Shown: in pieces, positions 3,961 to 22,990 of the stretch
Layout: each line of letters begins with the position of its first letter
Position numbering within the stretch: the first letter of the stretch is position 1
DNA from: Pedobacter endophyticus
GTDB taxonomy: Bacteria > Bacteroidota > Bacteroidia > Sphingobacteriales > Sphingobacteriaceae
Length of the DNA: 64,000 nucleotides
NCBI RefSeq assembly: GCF_015679185.1
Contig: NZ_CP064939.1
Coordinates: 3,038,001-3,102,000, forward strand
Reading direction: 5' to 3'
Notes under the pieces: model-generated
Seen by the model: the letters and a program-made list of their open reading frames with translations, nothing else
Told to the model about the DNA's origin: nothing
Database searches by the model: none
Made by a program: the position numbers and the translations under genes

Positions 3961-4273
3961 AATGATACATTTAAAATTAAACAAATGTACATTTGAGCCA
4001 GTGAGTCATCAAGATGTTCGTCAGTCGAACGAGCTGTAAATCAATATCTTACAAAATAATCCAGCACCCGAACATTTCGGAATAATTCTGGTTTTGATAT
4101 TTCAATCAATTTACTGACCTACAGTGTTTTACAAAAAATAGTCAATTTTCGACTCACTAAAATTAACCATTCAGAATGGTCGAAAACGAGTCTTAATGTG
4201 CTATAAAAACCAAAACAAAGCCTTGAAAATCAACGATTTGTGCAGCAATGTTCTGGTTTATATCTAAGGAAGT
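3961..4273. other. Noncoding spacer between recombinase and tRNA-Arg
   Basis: About 310 nt without a credible gene. TTTTCGACTCACT (about 4146-4158), the inverted GGTCGAAAACGAG (about 4176) and GTCAGTCGAACGAG (about 4020) are related short motifs that could be arm-type sites for the adjacent recombinase. That assignment is speculative. Confidence 0.3.
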
Positions 4274-4344
4274 GGTCCCGACGAGAATCGAACTCATATC
4301 TAAAGTTTAGGAAACTTCTATTCTATCCGTTGAACTACGGGACC
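4274..4344 (-). tRNA. tRNA-Arg(CCT), intact copy at left island end
   Basis: 71 nt, 5' end at 4344. Acceptor arms GGTCCCG/CGGGACC pair perfectly. The anticodon loop TTCCTAA gives anticodon CCT (4309-4311). The T arm is ATGAG-TTCGATT-CTCGT with a canonical T loop at 4286-4292. CCA is not encoded. The sequence matches 22920-22990 at every position outside the T loop, so it is both a functional-looking tRNA and one boundary (att site) of the integrated island. Confidence 0.9.
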
Positions 4345-6126: not shown

Positions 6127-7962
6127 ATGAAATATATAGAGAAAAAAATAAAGGAACATCAATATCTATCTGATATTATGAAGCAATTAGCTAGAAATTG
6201 CATCTATCAAAAACCAACTGGTCGAGGTATCACTCATCTCGAAATCTGTACAGACCGAGACAGCGTAATTGTCGAGACAAACAAGCCAGTAATTCAAGGA
6301 AAGTGTTCAGAATTTAATAAGGGAAACCGGCGAAAACTCAAGATCAGGGGTGTCTATGAAGGCGTCACTGTCCAGGATATTATAGATTATTTGCAATCAG
6401 ATGTTGAGTACAAAAAGATAATCACAACGCCTGAAAGTTATTTTAAAGTTGTTGAAGCTATTGTGGTACTTGAGATGGAAAAAGAGTTCTATAGCAAATA
6501 CTTCTTCTTGTTTGATGAATGTGAACATACTATACAAGATGTCGATTTCAGAGAATATATCACTTATCCCATTGACGATTTTTTCAAGTTTAAAAACAAA
6601 GCGTTTGTTTCAGCTACCCCTATAGTTCCATCAGATTCAAGGTTTGAAATGCAGAAATTTAAATTCGTTAATATTATTCCTGATTACAATCATGTTCAGG
6701 ATTTGAATTTAATCGTGACAAACAATTGTCTTTTATCACTTAACGAATACTTAAAAAGAAACAAGCGTAAGCAGTATTTTATCTTTTTAAATTCAACCAA
6801 AGCCATAATAACCGCTATTAATTTCCTAGGTGTATCTCTCGATGATAGCTATATATTTTGTTCTGAAGAGAGCAGGAATAAACTTAAGCTAAATAAGATA
6901 ACTAATGCCGAATCCACTTTGGTTAAAAGTGAGCACTTTCGACAGTTTAATTTTTTTACTAGCAGATTTAATTCCGCAGTTGATATTCTTAACGTAACAG
7001 ATCCGGAGATAGTTATTATCAGCGATCTTTTCCTTGCTCAACACAGTATGGTTGATCCATTCAGCGAAGTCATCCAGATTGTTGGACGTTTTCGCAAGCC
7101 AAAAGATGGGGCAATTAAAAGATATATCACACACATAACGAACATCGATGAAAATCTAGGAGCACTTTCTGAAAAGGAATTGATTGAAGATATAGAGAGA
7201 TTAAAAAGTGTGCATGACACCTTGACAAGTTTTCTTCAAGCAAGTACTACATCATTTGCTAGGACAATTGTCAATGAAATGCTTTTGACAACTACATTTG
7301 CAAAATTTGTAAATGCAAATGGGAAAACAAAACCCTTTATGATTGATAACGCCAAATTTAGGAACAAAGTGAAGCACTATTATCAAAAAAAAGAGCTACT
7401 ACTGCAAGCTTATCAAAATACCAAAATGTTTAATACGAATCTGCTCACGGAAGAATACAAACTGACGGATGAAATTCGTTTGCAAATAAAGGAATCCAAA
7501 AATGCGTTGAAAACATCGATGGAACTTCTCCTGCCGATTTTGAGCCAGCTTGAAGCAGAGGGCATAGATAAGTTGGAAGTACAGGATCAATTGAATCAAA
7601 TAAAACAAGAGCATCCAACAACCTATGGTGCTTTCAAAACAATAGGTTTTGAAAGAGCAAAGGAACTTCATTTCTCCTACAGTCTAATTCAGCGAGAAAT
7701 TGGACGCGTTAAGACTTTGAATGAGGGAAATAACTTTAAATTTCTTTCAGATATCAAGACACGATTTACAGTATTCCAAAAATACACATTGAAGCAGATT
7801 AAAACCAAGCTAAAATCTCTTATGAAAGAAAATAACCTCACTAGGCTTACACCTGGGATCGAGCTATTGGAAAAATATTTTGAGGTATCTGCAAGAGAAT
7901 ATATCGGATCTGAAAATGGAAAACCGATTTATGGTTATACTATCTTAGGTGTAAAAATCTAA
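6127..7962 (+). CDS. Degenerate SF2 helicase-like protein
   Basis: 611 aa. Helicase-like landmarks occur in order: KPTGRGIT at about 29-36 in the P-loop position, DECE at 130-133 (motif II), SATP at 162-165 (motif III), and QIVGRFR near 318 (motif VI). The P-loop lysine is replaced by Ile and the usual spacing is compressed. This suggests either a family with altered nucleotide binding or a protein that has lost ATPase activity. The C-terminal 270 residues are helical and Lys-rich with no recognised domain. Similar proteins are known to me from Bacteroidota mobile elements, where a replication role is assumed. It stands alone between a terminator and a palindrome, so it is likely its own transcription unit. 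Confidence 0.7.
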   Translation: MKYIEKKIKEHQYLSDIMKQLARNCIYQKPTGRGITHLEICTDRDSVIVETNKPVIQGKCSEFNKGNRRKLKIRGVYEGVTVQDIIDYLQSDVEYKKIITTPESYFKVVEAIVVLEMEKEFYSKYFFLFDECEHTIQDVDFREYITYPIDDFFKFKNKAFVSATPIVPSDSRFEMQKFKFVNIIPDYNHVQDLNLIVTNNCLLSLNEYLKRNKRKQYFIFLNSTKAIITAINFLGVSLDDSYIFCSEESRNKLKLNKITNAESTLVKSEHFRQFNFFTSRFNSAVDILNVTDPEIVIISDLFLAQHSMVDPFSEVIQIVGRFRKPKDGAIKRYITHITNIDENLGALSEKELIEDIERLKSVHDTLTSFLQASTTSFARTIVNEMLLTTTFAKFVNANGKTKPFMIDNAKFRNKVKHYYQKKELLLQAYQNTKMFNTNLLTEEYKLTDEIRLQIKESKNALKTSMELLLPILSQLEAEGIDKLEVQDQLNQIKQEHPTTYGAFKTIGFERAKELHFSYSLIQREIGRVKTLNEGNNFKFLSDIKTRFTVFQKYTLKQIKTKLKSLMKENNLTRLTPGIELLEKYFEVSAREYIGSENGKPIYGYTILGVKI

Positions 7963-7982
7963 ATTTTTATTGATTCAAATAT

Positions 7983-7998
7983 GGGGGTATATACCCCC
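7983..7998 (+). terminator. GGGGGTATATACCCCC palindrome after the helicase-like gene
   Basis: A perfect 16-nt palindrome 20 nt after the stop codon, followed by TTTAAT. It could act as a terminator. The same core with the same TTTAAT tail recurs at 21671 next to the right recombinase, which hints at a protein-binding site. Confidence 0.45.
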
Positions 7999-8657
7999 TT
8001 TAATCAAGCGATAAGAAATTGAAAAGAATGGAATGGCGATGTTATAGAATCTACAGATGGTCGTTTGACTACATTAAAAATATAAAATGGAGCTTCAAAT
8101 ATGAGCAGATTCTAGCAGTTTCAATAACTCATTTCGCCCTTTAAAAGCGAAATCAAAAAGCCGCTCAAAACCACAAAAACAGCTTTTGGATTAGTCATTA
8201 TTGAACGCATACCCCAGGAATATCAGGGGTTTTTGAACAGGTGAAAGATTACGTCGTTTTGCTTCTACGAAAACGGTTGCACAGCACACTAAGTTGTCTT
8301 GGACTAATCCCATCGGCAAGCTGGGTAACAAAGATCATCAAAAATTAAATTTTTGAGAGCGTAAGCTAATACCCACCCCTCCCATTGAAATTTTGGAAGT
8401 CATTTTCGTTTGGAGCTTGCTTTCAAACTGCGTAAACCCCTTTTGTTTTAAAAGGTAAGGAGTCGATCTAATATCTATAAGACGAGTGCTTCAGATTATC
8501 CAAGATAGTTTGTGTTGTGCGAGGCATCAGAGTGCCGACTGAAGCCCCCGACTAGGTTTTGATGAGAAGCAAAGAGTTTTAGCCAAGCTATCGCTACATA
8601 CAAACCTCGATTTTAAAAAAAAGAAACACCCAGAATTTAAAACCCACAAGCAACAAA
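7999..8657. other. Long noncoding stretch in the island
   Basis: About 660 nt with no credible gene on either strand. It holds a weak hairpin ACCCC ... GGGGT followed by TTTTT (about 8211-8236), a stem CCTTTTG/TTTTAAAAGG near 8441-8457, and a GC-richer segment around 8518-8610 (GCGAGGCATCAGAGTGCC). The last is conspicuous in this AT-rich island and might be an origin or an RNA, but no function is recognised. Confidence 0.3.
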
Positions 8658-9152
8658 ATGAAGAACTTTGAATCAGCTAACCAAGAAACTGAGCTAAGAA
8701 ATGAGCCACAACGACCAGTCTTGAAGAACTACAAACTGGCAAGGCGAGCATTGCCATTGGAAAAAGCAATAAATGAAGGAATGGAATATATGTACCATGA
8801 TCTGTTGAAACGGATCAAAAAGATGTACAGTACCTTGCCAAATGAAGCGGACAGGTTGGTTGTGGAGATTGACTGCAAGAATGACCCGTTTGACCCCGAT
8901 GGTCTTTGGTGTTTTTTCACTCCACACTTATACTATCATGTCCGATGCAACTACGTTGAGAGGTACGAAGTTGATTACCAATTCCACAACTGCCCATTCG
9001 AGAATGAAATCCGTGCTTGGTTTAAAAGGGTACTGCACCCTATGTACACCAATGAGGTGAGCAAGAAGCCAGACTATCCAACATTTTATCAAAGAGTACT
9101 GGCTTATCAACCAAAGGAACGAATTTACACACTTGATTATTGCAAGATTTGA
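8658..9152 (+). CDS. Hypothetical protein, 164 aa
   Basis: Not recognised. The protein is hydrophilic and Tyr/Phe-rich, with CFFTPHLYYHVRCNYVERYEV in the middle (about 84-104) and four cysteines, but no clear metal-binding pattern. No signal peptide or membrane segment is present. A hairpin with a T tract 33 nt after the stop marks the end of its transcript. It is preceded by 695 nt of noncoding DNA that may contain its control region. Confidence 0.65.
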   Translation: MKNFESANQETELRNEPQRPVLKNYKLARRALPLEKAINEGMEYMYHDLLKRIKKMYSTLPNEADRLVVEIDCKNDPFDPDGLWCFFTPHLYYHVRCNYVERYEVDYQFHNCPFENEIRAWFKRVLHPMYTNEVSKKPDYPTFYQRVLAYQPKERIYTLDYCKI

Positions 9153-9184
9153 CTTCGATTGAATAGCATTCGACTTACACTAAT

Positions 9185-9209
9185 GCCAGGTTTTACAACT
9201 TGGCTTTTT
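9185..9209 (+). terminator. Terminator hairpin
   Basis: GCCAGGTTTTACAACTTGGC followed by TTTTT. The stem has small bulges. It lies just downstream of the gene ending at 9152. Confidence 0.6.
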
Positions 9210-9288
9210 GCGTTTCAGTCAAATTGCATTTAATCAAGCGTAGTACCTTTTAAAACAGACACTTCACATTAACCACAAAGCAATTCAC

Positions 9289-9320
9289 AGGCACTCTTCA
9301 CAGGGTGCCTTTTCTTTTTA
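9289..9320 (+). terminator. Hairpin upstream of the next gene, possible attenuator
   Basis: AGGCAC (9289-9294) pairs with GTGCCT (9305-9310), and TTTTCTTTTT follows. It ends about 24 nt before the start codon at 9344. A terminator placed there would act either as a backstop for the upstream gene or as a leader attenuator. Confidence 0.45.
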
Positions 9321-9343
9321 CATACTTTTTAATTCTTAAAACA

Positions 9344-9856
9344 ATGAAAACACAAACCAAAGCGAAAGCACAGTCCAAAACACAGTACGTTGCCATTACA
9401 ACTGATGTGCAACAAGTAAACCAACAAGTTGAAAAAGCCTACACCTTGATGGTTGAAGCTGCAACAGAACTACTAAAACGATTTGATGTTGCCAAGTTCC
9501 GAACCTATGCACTAATGGATCACACCAAGAACGAGCAGAACACAAATCTGGTAAAAGAGTACCTAAGCTACTTTCACAACATCACTTTGTCAATGTCACC
9601 AAAAGATGGCAGATTCTACATCTTTATAGATCTCGGCGAAGAAGCTTTGCAGAAGTTCGGCAGCACTTTGACCAACAACCTACTTAGAGAGTGCTACAGA
9701 CTTACGCAATCGAATGACAACACCACTGGAATTGAATATTCGTTAAGGGTAAACTATTTGGCCGGTGAAAGCCTACATAATTTCTACTATCGCAGAATTG
9801 TCGAGGGTGAAACAGGCTATGTTTCTATTCTAACCGTTGAGAAAGACGCAGCTTAA
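9344..9856 (+). CDS. Hypothetical protein, 170 aa
   Basis: The ATG at 9344 (MKTQTKAKAQSKTQ) is preferred over one 39 nt upstream, because the extra residues are hydrophobic and fall in the leader hairpin. The protein is soluble and polar. It contains FYIFIDLGEEALQKF (about 95-109), suggesting an alpha/beta fold. No family is recognised. It is followed by about 110 nt and then the structured RNA candidate. Confidence 0.65.
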   Translation: MKTQTKAKAQSKTQYVAITTDVQQVNQQVEKAYTLMVEAATELLKRFDVAKFRTYALMDHTKNEQNTNLVKEYLSYFHNITLSMSPKDGRFYIFIDLGEEALQKFGSTLTNNLLRECYRLTQSNDNTTGIEYSLRVNYLAGESLHNFYYRRIVEGETGYVSILTVEKDAA

Positions 9857-9968
9857 AAAATTATGCACAGGAATGCGATTAGTTCATTTCTCTTTATTAG
9901 ATTTGAAAGATGAAATAAACAAAAGAATAATTACATATTAAAATATAAGCGTTAGCTTCTCTACTTGT

Positions 9969-10078
9969 AACTGGAACCTAGGAAATTCAAGAAGTAAAAC
10001 AAGATAGATTAGACTGGTGCCCACGCGAAAGGCGTAGGGCTCAGCCTGTCTGTTTACTTGCCTCCTAGGGCTCCAGTT
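9969..10078 (+). ncRNA. Structured RNA candidate, nested five-stem hairpin
   Basis: Five stems nest without conflict: AACTGGA/TCCAGTT (9969-9975 with 10072-10078), CCTAGGA/TCCTAGG (9977-9983 with 10063-10069), AAGTAAA/TTTACTT (9992-9998 with 10053-10059), AGACtGG/CCtGTCT (10011-10017 with 10045-10051), and GCCCACGC/GCGTaGGGC closed by a GAAAG loop (10019-10040). The segment is GC-richer than its surroundings and carries no gene. It ends 81 nt before the next start codon. No known RNA family is recognised and no reverse transcriptase is nearby. The strand is assumed to be that of the neighbouring genes. Confidence 0.5.
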
Positions 10079-10159
10079 CAGATGTATGGTTGTTGTCCCT
10101 ACGCTTATTGCATTTATTATATCAAACTATGGGACAGTTTGAGCTTATCTTAAATTAAT

Positions 10160-10537
10160 ATGTTAAAGGAGTTTCTCTCAATTTGTGTGCTGCTTGCATG
10201 CAGCTACGGGGTTCATTCACAAGTGCTTTATGTACCAAACCCACTTCCCTCAAACAATGGCTATCTGAATCAACAACAACAATCAGATCAGGAAGCGCAG
10301 GTTTTGACAGCCTACTCGATAAATCCAACAACCCAATCTGTATTGAAGTATCGAATCAAGGTAGTAACTTATAATAAGGTAACTAAGATCATAAGTTACA
10401 AGCCATTAAGTTCCGAGTACTGGTCTAATCTTGCTCTACCTATAACTGCAACTCGTATCTCGATGTATGACCCGCTTGCAGAACAGTTCGAATACAAAGT
10501 TTACCTGACGCCCTTGTTAGCCAATATATACTTTTAA
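10160..10537 (+). CDS. Secreted hypothetical protein, 125 aa
   Basis: The N terminus MLKEFLSICVLLACSYGVHS is a signal peptide, probably cleaved after HS-Q. The mature part is Gln/Asn-rich at first (NGYLNQQQQSDQEAQ) and then beta-like. No family is recognised. The next gene starts 4 nt later and is also exported, so the two form an operon of periplasmic or secreted proteins, which is unusual cargo for a defence island. Confidence 0.65.
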   Translation: MLKEFLSICVLLACSYGVHSQVLYVPNPLPSNNGYLNQQQQSDQEAQVLTAYSINPTTQSVLKYRIKVVTYNKVTKIISYKPLSSEYWSNLALPITATRISMYDPLAEQFEYKVYLTPLLANIYF

Positions 10538-10540
10538 TAG

Positions 10541-11035
10541 ATGAAGAAATTACTACTACTGGTGTTGATTGCAGTATCAATATCTGCCTTCGGGCAGAAG
10601 TTTAGCTATAGCAAACGTATAAATGGGTTGTGGGGTAATTGGGAAACTCCATCCTATAATATGTTTGTCTATAAGTTGATTGGAACTACGGATATATATA
10701 ACGAGTTCATTATTTATGGAGCCTACGACCATCCATCGAAATACATTTTAAAGGTTATTATGTTAGGTCAAGTTGTTGAAACTGATAAAAAGAAAAGGAA
10801 GGAAGCAATCAAGTCTGGTAAGTGGTATGAATATCCAGCTATGGTTGAGTATTACACAGCTAATATGTCTGACCGTTTCAAGGATATCATAAATCGATGG
10901 CCTTTGGATGGATACAACACCGATTTTGAGAAACACTATGTTCCAGCCACTGTTACGATTCCGCCCTATAAGGATAAGCCAGTGAACTACAATATATGGT
11001 TCGAAGAGTTAGGTTTGGCTATACAACTTAAGTAG
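10541..11035 (+). CDS. Secreted hypothetical protein, 164 aa
   Basis: A signal peptide MKKLLLLVLIAVSISAFG-Q is followed by an aromatic, beta-rich mature domain (FSYSKRINGLWGNWETPSYN). No family is recognised. It is translationally close-coupled to the upstream exported protein (3-nt gap). The role is unknown; the paired signal peptides suggest the two products act in the same compartment. Confidence 0.68.
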   Translation: MKKLLLLVLIAVSISAFGQKFSYSKRINGLWGNWETPSYNMFVYKLIGTTDIYNEFIIYGAYDHPSKYILKVIMLGQVVETDKKKRKEAIKSGKWYEYPAMVEYYTANMSDRFKDIINRWPLDGYNTDFEKHYVPATVTIPPYKDKPVNYNIWFEELGLAIQLK

Positions 11036-12146: not shown

Positions 12147-12683
12147 TTGGATACCGAAGAACTATCAGTAATTCAAATACTGAACAAGATGTATGAGCAT
12201 TCTGAAGAAATGCTTAAGCTAGGTGAAGCAAAGAACACGACTTTAATAGCATTTAACGGTGCTATAATAGTTGGGATTATAGCAGTATTTAAAGACATAC
12301 CACATGGCTTTCTTGTATATTATGCGATGTTCAGCATTTTCATGTGTGCCATTTCAATGTTTGTATGTTTTGCCTCACTTGTAGCTAAGGTATTACACAA
12401 GCCTTATAAAACCAGTATTCGTCAAAGCGACAACATCCTCTTCTTTGGAACCATTGCAAAACTATCTCACGGCCAGCTAATCGATAAATTAAAGGAGAGG
12501 TACGGCTTGGAGAATGTTAATGTTCCTTTTGAGGAAGATAAAGCAAAGCAGATAGTTGTAATAGCACAGATCGCAGCGAGAAAGTTCAACCTATTTAATA
12601 CAGCAATCGCTTTTATGTTTAGTGGCTTATTGACGCCGTTAAGCTACTTAGTATACTTAATATTTTTAGACCACGATAGATAA
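12147..12683 (+). CDS. pycTM: Pycsar effector, three-span membrane protein (PycTM type)
   Basis: 178 aa, start in TTGGATACCGAAGAA read as initiator TTG. The N-terminal helix LSVIQILNKMYEHSEEMLKL runs into EAKNTTLIAFNGAI, the pattern that begins the PycTM/DUF5706 effector family. Membrane segments lie at about 32-48, 54-82 and 151-174, separated by a soluble linker (85-148) that would face the cytosol. In known Pycsar systems the effector senses cCMP or cUMP made by the neighbouring cyclase during phage infection and damages the inner membrane. The cyclase gene follows 6 nt after the stop, which supports the call strongly. Confidence 0.85.
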   Translation: MDTEELSVIQILNKMYEHSEEMLKLGEAKNTTLIAFNGAIIVGIIAVFKDIPHGFLVYYAMFSIFMCAISMFVCFASLVAKVLHKPYKTSIRQSDNILFFGTIAKLSHGQLIDKLKERYGLENVNVPFEEDKAKQIVVIAQIAARKFNLFNTAIAFMFSGLLTPLSYLVYLIFLDHDR

Positions 12684-12689
12684 ATTGAA

Positions 12690-13433
12690 ATGGGATTAAA
12701 TTCAGACATAACAACTAAAGTTAAAGACATATTAGATGGTAATTTTAACATCGAGGATGTTACCTATGTGCCAGAGATAAGTAATCCAAAGCTAACCTTC
12801 AATAACACAGGCTTACGTTTTGAAGCTACAACATTATTTATTGACTTGAGAAACTCGACTGGTATTCTTAACGCTCATAATAAGTCTACTATTGCAAAGA
12901 TTCATAAAGCATACCTGTTCACAACCGTAAAAGTTGCCACGTCACTTGGTGGTGAAGTAAGAAGTTTCAATGGTGATAGTGTTCTAGCATTCTTTCAAGG
13001 CACAACCAAAACTACACTTAGTAATGCAGTAAAAGCTGCAATGAAGATTAAATATATGATCTCAAATACAGGTAGTGGAATAAACTCCATGCTCGCCAAG
13101 TATTCGGCAGTTGATTTTGGTATAGGATTAGATGATGGTCGAGTTCTATGCGCCAAGGTTGGCGTCGGAGGCGACGCGAATACCAAGGATTTGATCTGGA
13201 TAGGGAACGCAGTTAATAAAGCAGTCGTTATCAGTGACGAGTGCAAGTCTCCATATCACATTGGCATATCAAGTTATGTATACAGTAATTTAAATGATGA
13301 AGTCAAATTCGGCACTCAAAAAGATCCTTGGGGTAGAGAAGTAAAAGTTGATATGTGGACTGCTTATTATGTAACATATAATGGCAAGAGGGAAACGTTT
13401 TATAAGACAAATTGGTATTGGGAGGTATCTTAA
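12690..13433 (+). CDS. pycC: Pycsar pyrimidine nucleotide cyclase (PycC)
   Basis: 247 aa class III nucleotidyl cyclase domain over almost the whole length. The two metal-binding aspartates are visible in LFIDLRNST (Asp52) and FNGDSVLAFF (Asp96), and the conserved IGNAVNKA lies at about 171-178. In standard class III cyclases an Arg stands four residues after that Asn; here the position is Val180. Stand-alone cyclases of this type next to a PycTM protein are Pycsar enzymes that make cCMP or cUMP on phage infection. Which of the two is made here cannot be told from sequence alone. It sits between the effector (6-nt gap) and a third membrane gene (35-nt gap). Confidence 0.87.
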   Translation: MGLNSDITTKVKDILDGNFNIEDVTYVPEISNPKLTFNNTGLRFEATTLFIDLRNSTGILNAHNKSTIAKIHKAYLFTTVKVATSLGGEVRSFNGDSVLAFFQGTTKTTLSNAVKAAMKIKYMISNTGSGINSMLAKYSAVDFGIGLDDGRVLCAKVGVGGDANTKDLIWIGNAVNKAVVISDECKSPYHIGISSYVYSNLNDEVKFGTQKDPWGREVKVDMWTAYYVTYNGKRETFYKTNWYWEVS

Positions 13434-18357: not shown

Positions 18358-19299
18358 ATGGCCGTATTTAAACTATATTCAAAACGACAGAAAGAACTGA
18401 GGGGCGAGGTATCTGAGGTATTCACTTATGATAATTTACCAAGTGCATTAAGAGTTCAGGTATCACTTATCATTGACGATGCTTTTGGGGTCGATATAGG
18501 TCGTTATGGCAATGATAACAAGCCAGAAAAAGGGTTTGCCATGATTCACGAAATCATATGTAGAGAATATGGTGTATTTGAATTAGGTATTAATGACACT
18601 GGATACGCTCGTAGTGGCCGAGCGCAGCTTAAGAATCAATTACTTTACTCTCCAGAAACAGATAAGGTTTTAGATGTTATAGAGTTTTGTTTCAAATACA
18701 TCACTAACATAATAGGTAAAGGTCTATATCGCTACAAAGAGACAACGGACATTAAATTAACACCTGATGATGCTGTTGATGAGTTAAACATTCGATTCAA
18801 AGAGCATGGAGTTGGATATCAGTTTGAGTCAGGTGAAATAATACGTGTTGATTCAACGTACGTTCATTCAGAAATAACTAAACCTGTGTTAACATTACTT
18901 TGGAATGAACGATTTAAAGGAGCAAATGAAGAATACTTAAAAGCACATGAGCATTACAGGCATGGTAGAAATAAGGAGTGCTTAACTGACTGTTTAAAAG
19001 CTTTTGAAAGCACAATGAAGATTATCTGTGAAGAGAAGGGTTGGGCTTACAGCCAAACTGATACTGCCAGTAAACTTATAAATGTCTGTTTCGCAAATAA
19101 CCTAATTCCTTCGTTTACACAGAATCAATTCTCGTCACTTCAAAACCTACTAACAACTGGAATCCCTACGATAAGAAATAAAGTAGGGGGACATGGACAA
19201 GGCCAAGTACCTCTGAAGGTAAATGACGGGTTGACTAGATATGGATTAAATTTAACTGGCACCAACATCATTTTCTTAATTGAGCAGAGCGAATTGTAA
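18358..19299 (+). CDS. STM4504/AbiJ-type protein with C-terminal HEPN domain
   Basis: 313 aa. The N terminus LYSKRQKELRGEV and YDNLPSALRVQVSLIIDDAF matches the start of STM4504/CBY_0614 and AbiJ N-terminal-domain proteins. The C-terminal half (about 195-300) is an abortive-infection HEPN domain: KAHEHYRHGRNKECLTDCLK, then IRNKVGGHGQG, which supplies the R...H ribonuclease motif. Such proteins are thought to cleave RNA and stop growth during phage infection. It lies between a lipoprotein (17-nt gap) and an OLD-like ATPase (42-nt gap). The ATPase may act as sensor or control partner, which is inference. Confidence 0.8.
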   Translation: MAVFKLYSKRQKELRGEVSEVFTYDNLPSALRVQVSLIIDDAFGVDIGRYGNDNKPEKGFAMIHEIICREYGVFELGINDTGYARSGRAQLKNQLLYSPETDKVLDVIEFCFKYITNIIGKGLYRYKETTDIKLTPDDAVDELNIRFKEHGVGYQFESGEIIRVDSTYVHSEITKPVLTLLWNERFKGANEEYLKAHEHYRHGRNKECLTDCLKAFESTMKIICEEKGWAYSQTDTASKLINVCFANNLIPSFTQNQFSSLQNLLTTGIPTIRNKVGGHGQGQVPLKVNDGLTRYGLNLTGTNIIFLIEQSEL

Positions 19300-19341
19300 A
19301 TCAATCTAGCTTATCCATAATTACTTAATCATTTATAAGCA

Positions 19342-20841
19342 ATGGCAATATCTAACCAAGTCTTAAAGCAAATAGAGATTCATCAGCTCAAAGGACTGAA
19401 AGACTTAACTATCGACTTTACTCAACACCCACTAACAGCTATTCTCGCGCCAAACGGTATGGGTAAGTCTACAATACTCCATGCTATTGCTTGTATCAAT
19501 AATCCAGTAACTGTCCCAACCTCAACTGTAAACCATCGTTTAAGTGAGTTTTTTACTCCTACAACACATTCAATTTGGACAGGTAGTAGCTTTATGGTAA
19601 CTCAGGACTACCAAAATGCTGCAATTACTAGTAGAGATGTAAGGACTCACTTCAGAAAAGTAGTTGGACGATGGGCACCAAGATATGTAACTCGCATTGA
19701 AAGATATGTATCGTACATCGGTATTAGAACATGTGTCCCAATGATTGAATTAGAAACGCAACAAGCGCGTATACAATTTAATACCACGCCACTTACGGAT
19801 GCTCATTCTACAAGGGTAAGGAATGCTGCAGGCTATGTGATGAACAAAGTGTACAATGAGTATAACGAGCATAAGACTGGTTGGAATAAAAGCTACATTG
19901 GAGTTTCCGTCAATGGGATTTCTTACTCTTCATTAAGTATGGGAGCTGGTGAGCAAAGAGTCTTTTTTATTCTGTCTGAGGTTTTTAGAGCACCGAATTA
20001 TGGATTGATTATAATTGATGAACTTGACTTATTATTACATGAGGATGCACTATTTAGGCTTTTGGAAAAGCTTAATGAAGTCGCTAGTAACAAGCATCTT
20101 CAGATTGTTTTCACTACTCATGCGCTGTCTATTTTGACATTGGATTACATAGCATTTAGGCATCTCTATCAAACTCCATCTAAAACTCTTTGTTTTAGTG
20201 ATACGAAACCTGATGCCCTACAAAGATTAACAGGACATCAACTTAGACCACTTGAGATGTTTGTCGAGGACGATCTTGCTTATGCTATCGTAAAGAAGAT
20301 TGGTTCTGAAGAAGGATTGTCGAAGTATATGTCAGTTAAGAAGTTTGGGGCTGCCATAAATTGCTTTACTACAGTTGCTGGAGCCATACTAAACCAGCTT
20401 GACAACTTTCAAAATATGCTTTTTGTTCTTGATGGGGATGAATATAGTTCAGAAGAATTAAAAATACGAATGATTGGTAAGGTATTGACAGGCACATCTG
20501 AAGAGAATATACTTCAGCGAGCCTCTGCGCTGGAGAAAATTACTCAGTTGATACTACCTGTTGGGTTCCATCCTGAGTTTTATTTTTATAATGTCATCTG
20601 TGAGCTAAACAATGGAGATCTGACTGTTGAGCAAAGAGAAATTGTAGATGCAGCAAGGCAAATTGGTAATCCTGGCGATGAGCATAGGTATTTCAATGAT
20701 GTCATTGTGAGAATGGATTTTACAAGGGAAGTAGGATTGAATAAACTCGTAGATCTGCTAAGCATTACTCCACAATGGGCTTCGATAAGTCAGAATATTA
20801 GGCAATGGCTTGACGAAAAAAGAGAGGTTGTTGTAGAGTAA
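19342..20841 (+). CDS. OLD-like AAA ATPase with TOPRIM-type nuclease domain
   Basis: 499 aa. The ABC-type ATPase has Walker A APNGMGKST (36-44), signature SMGAGEQRV (about 200), Walker B LIIIDELDLLLH (about 225) and the switch histidine in FTTHALSIL. After about 300 come FVEDDLAYAIV and LFVLDGDEY, the Glu and DxD elements of a TOPRIM domain. This is the OLD-family layout, used by several anti-phage nucleases such as Gabija GajA and some retron effectors. No UvrD-like helicase partner (GajB) or reverse transcriptase is adjacent; the partner here is a HEPN protein. It ends the operon, and 260 nt of noncoding DNA follows. Confidence 0.82.
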   Translation: MAISNQVLKQIEIHQLKGLKDLTIDFTQHPLTAILAPNGMGKSTILHAIACINNPVTVPTSTVNHRLSEFFTPTTHSIWTGSSFMVTQDYQNAAITSRDVRTHFRKVVGRWAPRYVTRIERYVSYIGIRTCVPMIELETQQARIQFNTTPLTDAHSTRVRNAAGYVMNKVYNEYNEHKTGWNKSYIGVSVNGISYSSLSMGAGEQRVFFILSEVFRAPNYGLIIIDELDLLLHEDALFRLLEKLNEVASNKHLQIVFTTHALSILTLDYIAFRHLYQTPSKTLCFSDTKPDALQRLTGHQLRPLEMFVEDDLAYAIVKKIGSEEGLSKYMSVKKFGAAINCFTTVAGAILNQLDNFQNMLFVLDGDEYSSEELKIRMIGKVLTGTSEENILQRASALEKITQLILPVGFHPEFYFYNVICELNNGDLTVEQREIVDAARQIGNPGDEHRYFNDVIVRMDFTREVGLNKLVDLLSITPQWASISQNIRQWLDEKREVVVE

Positions 20842-21750: not shown

Positions 21751-22866
21751 CTATAATTCGGGCAAAACATCTTTTAGCCTTTCATCGTTGATTTCTCCCA
21801 ATCCCCTTAAATAGTTTAGAGTGACAATCATATTTGAATGTTGTAAAAGTTGTTGCAGGACATGTAAATCTTTCGTTTTCTGATAAACTCCGATTGCAGC
21901 AGTATGACGAAATGAATAAATTGTTTGATTAGGCTCCAATAATTTCGCTTTGATCATCTTTGTTTTAGCTTTACCCCACATTAAGTTGAAATAACCAACG
22001 CTATAAGGTTCTTTGGTCAGAGTGAAAATATTCAACTCTTTATCGCTTATCCCATCTAGTCGTTTCTCTAGCAAAACCTTAATATATAATGGTATATATA
22101 CTGTCCTTATTCGCTTGCTTTTATTTTCACTGCCTGATAATTGAATTTGAGAAAAGTCCTTGACGAAATGCTTTATCTTCAATAGTCTTATTTCGTGATG
22201 GGGACGAAGTAAACACCCGTACGTTAGGATGCAACACAGATGTAAATTAGGATAAGTTGTCTCCAAAAATTCTAAAACCGTATTCAGTTGATCCTTTGAA
22301 TACGGGATATGTAAACAGGCCTTCGCCCTTGCAGGTTTCGTTGATTTCACGACATTAAAACTGGCATAACCTTTTCTCACGAATTCATTTATCAGGGTAC
22401 TTAAACACCTTCTTCGGTTAATGTAATTTCGTTCACTGGACTGAAATTTTGCCAAGAAAGCATCAACAACAGAAAGTGGCAGACTATCACATTTATCATT
22501 GAGGTATATCTTTGGCACAAACTCAACAAACATCCTACATACAGCTTTTAAATTTCGCTTATATAAGTCGCATAGATTAGAGGAAAGTTTTTCAGCTAAA
22601 ACCTCTGCTAATGCATTTTGTAAAGAGGGTAGTTCGGACAATTTTGCAAACGGATTCCAACCTGCATTTAAAGCTTTCGTAAATTCGAATTGAAGTTGAG
22701 TAAGTACTCTTTTTTGGTCCCGAATAGTTGAACATTGATTGGGATTAATAACGAGGTTCAGTCGATTTCCGTTGTACTCGCGCAACCTCTTACCATTATA
22801 ATAAAAGGTTACATAAGCTCTTTCTCCTTGCTTTTTAGGAGTGACAATTTTGGGTTGTGTGAACAT
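21751..22866 (-). CDS. Tyrosine recombinase / integrase of the island
   Basis: 371 aa from the ATG at 22866 (MFTQPKIVTPKKQGERAYV). An ATG 24 nt upstream would include the arm-type repeats in the coding region, so the internal start is preferred. An N-terminal arm-binding segment (VTFYYNGKRLREYNGNRLN) and helical core-binding domain precede the catalytic domain. Box I LTYGCLLRPHHEI retains the Arg. Box II is YSFRHTAA, with Tyr in place of the first His. The end is LLQHSNMIVTLNYLRG with Tyr nucleophile. It lies 54 nt from the tRNA-Arg copy at 22920, the standard place for the element's own integrase. Confidence 0.9.
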   Translation of the reverse strand: MFTQPKIVTPKKQGERAYVTFYYNGKRLREYNGNRLNLVINPNQCSTIRDQKRVLTQLQFEFTKALNAGWNPFAKLSELPSLQNALAEVLAEKLSSNLCDLYKRNLKAVCRMFVEFVPKIYLNDKCDSLPLSVVDAFLAKFQSSERNYINRRRCLSTLINEFVRKGYASFNVVKSTKPARAKACLHIPYSKDQLNTVLEFLETTYPNLHLCCILTYGCLLRPHHEIRLLKIKHFVKDFSQIQLSGSENKSKRIRTVYIPLYIKVLLEKRLDGISDKELNIFTLTKEPYSVGYFNLMWGKAKTKMIKAKLLEPNQTIYSFRHTAAIGVYQKTKDLHVLQQLLQHSNMIVTLNYLRGLGEINDERLKDVLPEL

Positions 22867-22867
22867 G

Positions 22868-22889
22868 ATTTGGCGCATCTCTTGACGCA
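22868..22889. repeat. Right arm-type repeats
   Basis: ATTTGGCGCA at 22868-22877 and TTGACGCA at 22882-22889 repeat the pair at 4498-4519 with two mismatches over 22 nt and identical spacing. They lie just upstream of the recombinase start and 30 nt from the tRNA-Arg copy. Confidence 0.6.
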
Positions 22890-22919
22890 ACCCATTATGA
22901 AAACATCGTAACTCACTGT

Positions 22920-22990
22920 GGTCCCGACGAGGGCCTGCCTCATATCTAAAGTTTAGGAAACTTCTATTCTATCCGTTGAACTACGGGACC
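22920..22990 (-). pseudogene. tRNA-Arg(CCT) copy with replaced T loop, right island boundary
   Basis: 71 nt, identical to 4274-4344 in acceptor, D and anticodon arms, T stem and anticodon CCT. The exception is the T loop (22932-22938), which reads GCAGGCC in tRNA sense instead of TTCGATT. Loss of the TTCxA loop should abolish normal tRNA folding, so this copy is probably not functional. It adjoins metG, the chromosomal side. It is best read as an attachment site left by integration, with the intact gene now at the far end of the island. Confidence 0.75.

Follow-up and report, generated by a model that had tools for sequence, protein, structure and literature searches.

Known leader RNAs and Bacteroidota RNA motifs

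put RNA and the LoaP leaders are processive antitermination RNAs, structured RNAs that head accessory operons, and the element described here resembles them in that placement. It also resembles riboswitches and attenuator leaders in its 5' position, its own putative promoter, a covarying pseudoknotted fold and the U-run or start codon behind it, and differs from them in that its downstream genes are unrelated and no Rfam family matches it. Several Bacteroidota RNA motifs are published Rfam families, including Pedo-repair (RF01715), 6S-Flavo (RF01685), Flavo-1 (RF01705) and Bacteroidales-1 (RF01693) (PMC2864571), none of which was returned at the element by our Rfam 15 scans. Additionally, a human-microbiome survey (PMC8040213) reports HMP2_4078, HMP2_1032 and HMP2_4205, palindromic Bacteroidetes candidate RNAs of 106-132 bp near phage integrase, TonB or TPR genes; the part of its text drawn on here describes no pseudoknot, leader role or family for them. 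Compared by description only, these candidates may be partial sightings of the hairpin reported below.

A structured RNA in an island of Pedobacter endophyticus

The window, the whole 64,000-nucleotide stretch of DNA that was analysed, carries the element on an 18.6-kb island between tRNA-Arg(CCT) and a duplicate of that tRNA. The initial annotation described positions 9969-10078 as a noncoding, GC-richer rod of five stems, three of them perfect 7-bp helices, with a GNRA-like tip, and this description holds. The plus strand folds into a single rod (-46.1 kcal/mol, z -5.5, with 0 of 200 dinucleotide shuffles as stable) that contains the helices AACTGGA/TCCAGTT, CCTAGGA/TCCTAGG and AAGTAAA/TTTACTT and the tip GAAAG. 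The preceding gene ends at 9856 and the next start codon is at 10160; the segment between them has a GC content of 48%, compared with 37% in the region and 22-25% right beside it. Both genes behind it (10160-10537 and 10541-11035) have signal-peptide-like starts, in keeping with the secreted-protein pair first noted there.

The minus strand folds similarly (-45 kcal/mol, z -4.95), because the segment is a near-palindrome. It is the strongest 110-nt fold found in the island; since other island windows reach about -38, folding energy alone is no proof of an RNA, and the proof is covariation. The hairpin as originally drawn stands, and its boundaries and pseudoknots had been missed: 9969-10078 is only the inner hairpin, whereas the whole RNA spans 9943-10106, is closed by an outer stem and contains a pseudoknot. 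Pairing probably continues to 10138, through a likely second, downstream pseudoknot to 10131-10138. The parts of the locus are as follows.

6127-7962, plus strand: island-core gene c0, conserved, with helicase-like motifs DECE and SATP and no database match
8658-9152, plus strand: island-core gene c1a, conserved
9344-9856, plus strand: island-core gene c1b, directly upstream of the RNA; its family recurs in 23 leader loci
9898-9905, plus strand: promoter match TAGATTTG to the Bacteroidota -7 element TAnnTTTG (consensus match)
9943-10106, plus strand: full conserved RNA unit, model R1 positions 1-158 (141.3 bits, E 2e-37)
9947-9952, plus strand: 5' strand of closing stem P1, AAGCGT, partner 10101-10106 (relatives' alignment, covariation)
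9964-9968, plus strand: 5' strand of pseudoknot PK1, CTTGT (complementarity tests in two sets)
9969-9975, plus strand: P2a 5' strand, AACTGGA, partner 10072-10078 (fold, covariation)
9977-9983, plus strand: P2b 5' strand, CCTAGGA, partner 10063-10069 (fold, covariation)
9992-9998, plus strand: P3 5' strand, AAGTAAA, partner 10053-10059 (fold, covariation)
9999-10003, plus strand: PK1 3' strand, ACAAG (complementarity tests in two sets)
10019-10040, plus strand: P5 terminal hairpin, GCCCACGC-GAAAG-GCGTAGGGC (fold, covariation)
10053-10059, plus strand: P3 3' strand (fold)
10063-10069, plus strand: P2b 3' strand (fold)
10072-10078, plus strand: P2a 3' strand (fold)
10092-10099, plus strand: candidate PK2 5' strand, GTTGTCCC, in the bulge ahead of the P1 3' strand (complementarity)
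10101-10106, plus strand: P1 3' strand, ACGCTT (relatives' alignment, covariation)
10131-10138, plus strand: candidate PK2 3' strand, GGGACAGT, ending about 21 nt ahead of the start codon (complementarity)
10160-10537, plus strand: first gene behind the leader, 125 aa, with a signal-peptide-like start and no Pfam match
10541-11035, plus strand: second gene behind the leader, 164 aa, with a signal-peptide-like start

Relatives across the phylum

Relatives found by blastn within the same bacterial family are 71-78% identical to the element. Some are reverse-oriented; once turned, all align from ATATAAGCG to ACGCTT, well beyond 9969-10078, and at L011, L013, L014, L015 and L019 the alignment and gene context are consistent only after reverse complementation. 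With a covariance model of 158 positions (R1), built from ten relatives, full-length matches were found in 258 of 400 genomes from the family, in 94 of 395 from the class (56 of 196 genera) and in 31 of 296 from the phylum; the matches listed with an E value under 0.001 span the full length. Scanning named genomes with a sequence pattern added 48 loci, every one confirmed by R1, from Pedobacter, Prevotella, Porphyromonas, Bacteroides, Alistipes, Runella, Niabella and others. Searches of plasmid, phage and viral sequences were negative in three forms: blastn with the window element as query in plasmids and phages, blastn of relative L206 against plasmids and of relative L203 against phages, and pattern and c1b protein searches of viral contigs.

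Genomes carry up to seven copies, diverged from one another. One 1.9-Mb genome (G943) holds seven promoter-RNA cassettes (L212-L218), mostly 76-88% alike, ahead of unrelated genes that often encode exported proteins. Near other leader copies we also observed a Flavo-1 RNA (L127, 9651-9728) and a group II intron match (L144, 322-420).

The window and 20 loci with relatives were scanned against the 4,227 families of Rfam 15 at gathering and permissive thresholds, and no family matched the element in any of them; the top permissive match in the window was KCNQ1OT1_5 (18.6 bits against a gathering threshold of 120, E 2.3). This agrees with the original remark that no known family could be recognised, and our literature search likewise found no description of this leader RNA. 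6S RNA was considered and set aside, there being no Rfam hit. Given the absence of an Rfam 15 match, this is a previously uncatalogued RNA family across the Bacteroidota. An RNA of about 160 nt that occurs in hundreds of genomes of a phylum with a central place in both gut and soil, and that is missing from Rfam, represents a large annotation gap.

Covariation and pseudoknots

Every major helix of the RNA covaries. Among 90 sequences, 33 of 37 pairs show changes on both sides. The cells changed in this way number 565, compared with 180 after shuffling and 67-136 when the pairing was slid; in a second set, of 50 sequences, the corresponding counts were 286, 110 and 22-48. Both alignments were made by fitting to the model and are biased toward it; even so, the slid and shuffled controls are far lower. 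The stems are thus kept in homologues by compensatory changes, the check proposed when a structured RNA was first suggested here, and that suggestion is upheld.

These data bear directly on the proposal, made in the initial annotation, that the hairpin might be a MITE-like palindrome. A functionless MITE or REP-type element would account for a palindromic hairpin present in several copies per genome. However, blastn finds no second copy in the window's own genome, where the two further R1 copies are very divergent, and for these reasons the proposal is unsupported. Within other genomes, too, copies are highly diverged with the structure still kept, and the strong stem covariation in both sets leaves this explanation hardly credible.

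The covariance model cannot hold a pseudoknot, so PK1 was tested with its paired segments taken without alignment. The stretch that separates the 5' strands of P1 and P2 is complementary to one inside the hairpin: CTTGT/ACAAG in the window, and TCTCGT/ACGAGA, GTTCCG/CGGAAC, GCCTCGC/GCGAGGC and GTTCGC/GCGAAC elsewhere. Complementarity was 16.55 within sequences compared with 13.41 (maximum 14.31) when partners were swapped between sequences, and in the second set 15.73 compared with 12.44 +/- 0.37. Because complementarity is higher within than between sequences in both sets, PK1 is well supported as a real crossing pseudoknot.

A second pseudoknot, PK2, probably pairs the bulge ahead of the P1 3' strand with a segment often 20-30 nt behind P1. 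Its overall complementarity was 14.52, compared with 12.77 +/- 0.25 in swaps, and it is supported also in the non-island and named sets; in the island group alone the value (14.14 compared with 13.55, maximum 14.37) is inseparable from the swap control. In G943, six of the seven copies carry AGTCCC ahead of P1 and a matching downstream GGGACT.

Compensatory change in a crossing pseudoknot also weighs against an element acting as DNA, such as an attC-like hairpin recombination site or a replication or transfer origin of mobile islands at which cargo is inserted. Such a site would fit the near-palindromic sequence, the variability of everything 3' of the hairpin in islands, and the bounded homology with unrelated flanks seen in locus pairs such as L025/L026. 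Yet the element has a predicted promoter and a characteristic spacing to start codons, lies mostly at the 5' end of genes, occurs once per locus with no gene-site-gene arrays seen, and is not confined to such islands, being present at SusC and restriction loci as well. We therefore rate a DNA-level function as very improbable. An integron attC site specifically was rejected on its single copies, the lack of gene-site arrays and a position mostly at the 5' rather than the 3' end of genes.

Position of the RNA and its probable action

Upstream of 90 RNAs, TAnnTTTG occurs 74 times compared with 6.7 expected in shuffles, and in the window it lies 45 nt ahead of the conserved unit, as a consensus match only. 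A same-strand gene follows at 123 of 159 loci, the other 36 having no same-strand gene of 90 aa that starts within 450 nt, and the start codon falls 40-80 nt past the RNA in 68 of 124. Of 104 non-island copies, 49% have a U-run of five or more beginning exactly where P1 ends, compared with 1-9% at other offsets; none of 35 island copies, the subtype to which the window copy belongs, has one there. Promoter matches, start-codon spacing and U-run agree in indicating that the plus strand is the transcribed one. Judged from comparative sequence, 9943-10106 is a conserved unit of P1, a long P2-P3-P5 hairpin and the inner PK1, all kept by compensatory changes, and it stands behind a predicted Bacteroidota promoter and ahead of a same-strand gene at short spacing.

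We suggest, with somewhat better than even confidence, that the element is a new cis-acting structured leader RNA that switches expression of the gene behind it, probably at translation or termination. This is in line with the regulatory leader named among the original possibilities, for which promoter, start-codon spacing and same-strand genes all speak. The RNA would be transcribed as the 5' part of an mRNA, and its folding and unfolding would alter expression of the following gene. In the island subtype, including the window copy, control would most likely act on translation, because candidate PK2 ends about 21 nt ahead of the start codon. Where a U-run follows the closing stem directly, as it does in about half of the other copies, folding would end transcription by attenuation. 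The trigger may be a small molecule, a protein or the state of the ribosome or RNA polymerase, the step of this scheme that we hold least firmly.

Several observations run against a cis-acting leader. A metabolite riboswitch would not usually precede genes without a common pathway, as this RNA does; 36 of the 159 loci lack a suitable same-strand gene, PK2 does not stand out from its control in the island group, and the window's promoter is a consensus match. In the half of the non-island copies that have them, P1 and the U-run may equally well form the 3' terminus of an independent small RNA. Such an RNA, trans-acting or structural, self-terminated and acting elsewhere with accessory genes merely downstream, would account for the U-run that immediately follows P1 in 49% of the copies outside islands, for a promoter of its own (a consensus match) and for the compact, complex, pseudoknotted fold. 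It does not account for the way same-strand start codons cluster at a short distance, for genomes with a number of diverged copies ahead of unrelated genes, for an island subtype without the U-run or for the enrichment of exported proteins behind the RNA, and we consider it unlikely.

Genes behind the probable leader

Judged by a simple hydrophobicity criterion, 62 of 123 first downstream genes (50%) begin with a signal-peptide-like sequence, compared with 185 of 924 background ORFs (20%); the p value of 4e-12 is approximate, as the sequences are related and some genomes appear twice. A lipobox is found in 20% of these genes compared with 4% of the background. Island loci follow the order helicase-like c0, c1a, c1b, RNA and then variable cargo. 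At non-island loci the RNA lies behind a divergent XRE regulator and ahead of TlpA/SusC operons, or ahead of restriction-modification, SNF2/DISARM-like or other genes, and Bacteroidales copies precede restriction-modification and DISARM-like genes. At the loci from named genomes, most genes upstream of the RNA differ in kind from those behind it (enzymes of amino-acid and carbohydrate metabolism, peptidases and the like), and a few are defence-like.

The genes behind the RNA are unrelated to one another and share no common pathway, and for that reason the partnership with a toxin or defence protein that had been offered as an option is unsupported as a general role. An RNA that licenses expression by processive antitermination (of the put RNA or LoaP/RfaH type), through polymerase read-through of long accessory operons, would explain why a modular promoter-RNA cassette is copied ahead of unrelated genes and why it heads cargo, SusC and restriction operons. 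However, many copies precede short units of one or two genes, which makes this reading distinctly unlikely.

For the leader as an expression switch, the seven cassettes before unrelated genes in G943 argue for control by a shared signal rather than by product feedback. More tentatively, and on balance doubtfully, the family may form a phylum-wide switch with a single trigger, whose regulon would comprise surface lipoproteins, nutrient receptors, mobile-island cargo and phage-defence genes. If so, Bacteroidota would turn accessory surface and defence functions on and off together. The question raised is what single signal would control such unrelated accessory genes. The leader shows where surface, island and defence operons have their promoter and first gene, and it supplies a ready search model.

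The surrounding island

The island is flanked by the tRNA-Arg(CCT) gene (4272-4344) and its near-complete duplicate (22919-22990), which are identical over at least 30 bases, and a tyrosine recombinase (21751-22890) at the right end adjoins the duplicate. The core genes c0, c1a and c1b (6127-9856) recur across many related islands. They received no assignment in Pfam, NCBIfam and PHROGs profile searches, c0 and c1b had no match in a PDB profile search, and an AlphaFold model of c1b made without an alignment (pLDDT 41) was too low in confidence for use. A retron ncRNA was rejected, as no RT domain was found among the longer, annotated island genes that were scanned.

The same island carries a Pycsar anti-phage pair (12147-13433), consisting of a PycTM-like effector (12147-12683) and a PycC-like cyclase (12690-13433). 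An AbiJ-N-terminal-domain protein followed by a HEC-04/AAA_15-like ATPase (18358-20841) may be a second defence unit. To the left of the tRNA, at 428-2043, an AbiEii-like nucleotidyltransferase adjoins a candidate antitoxin partner.
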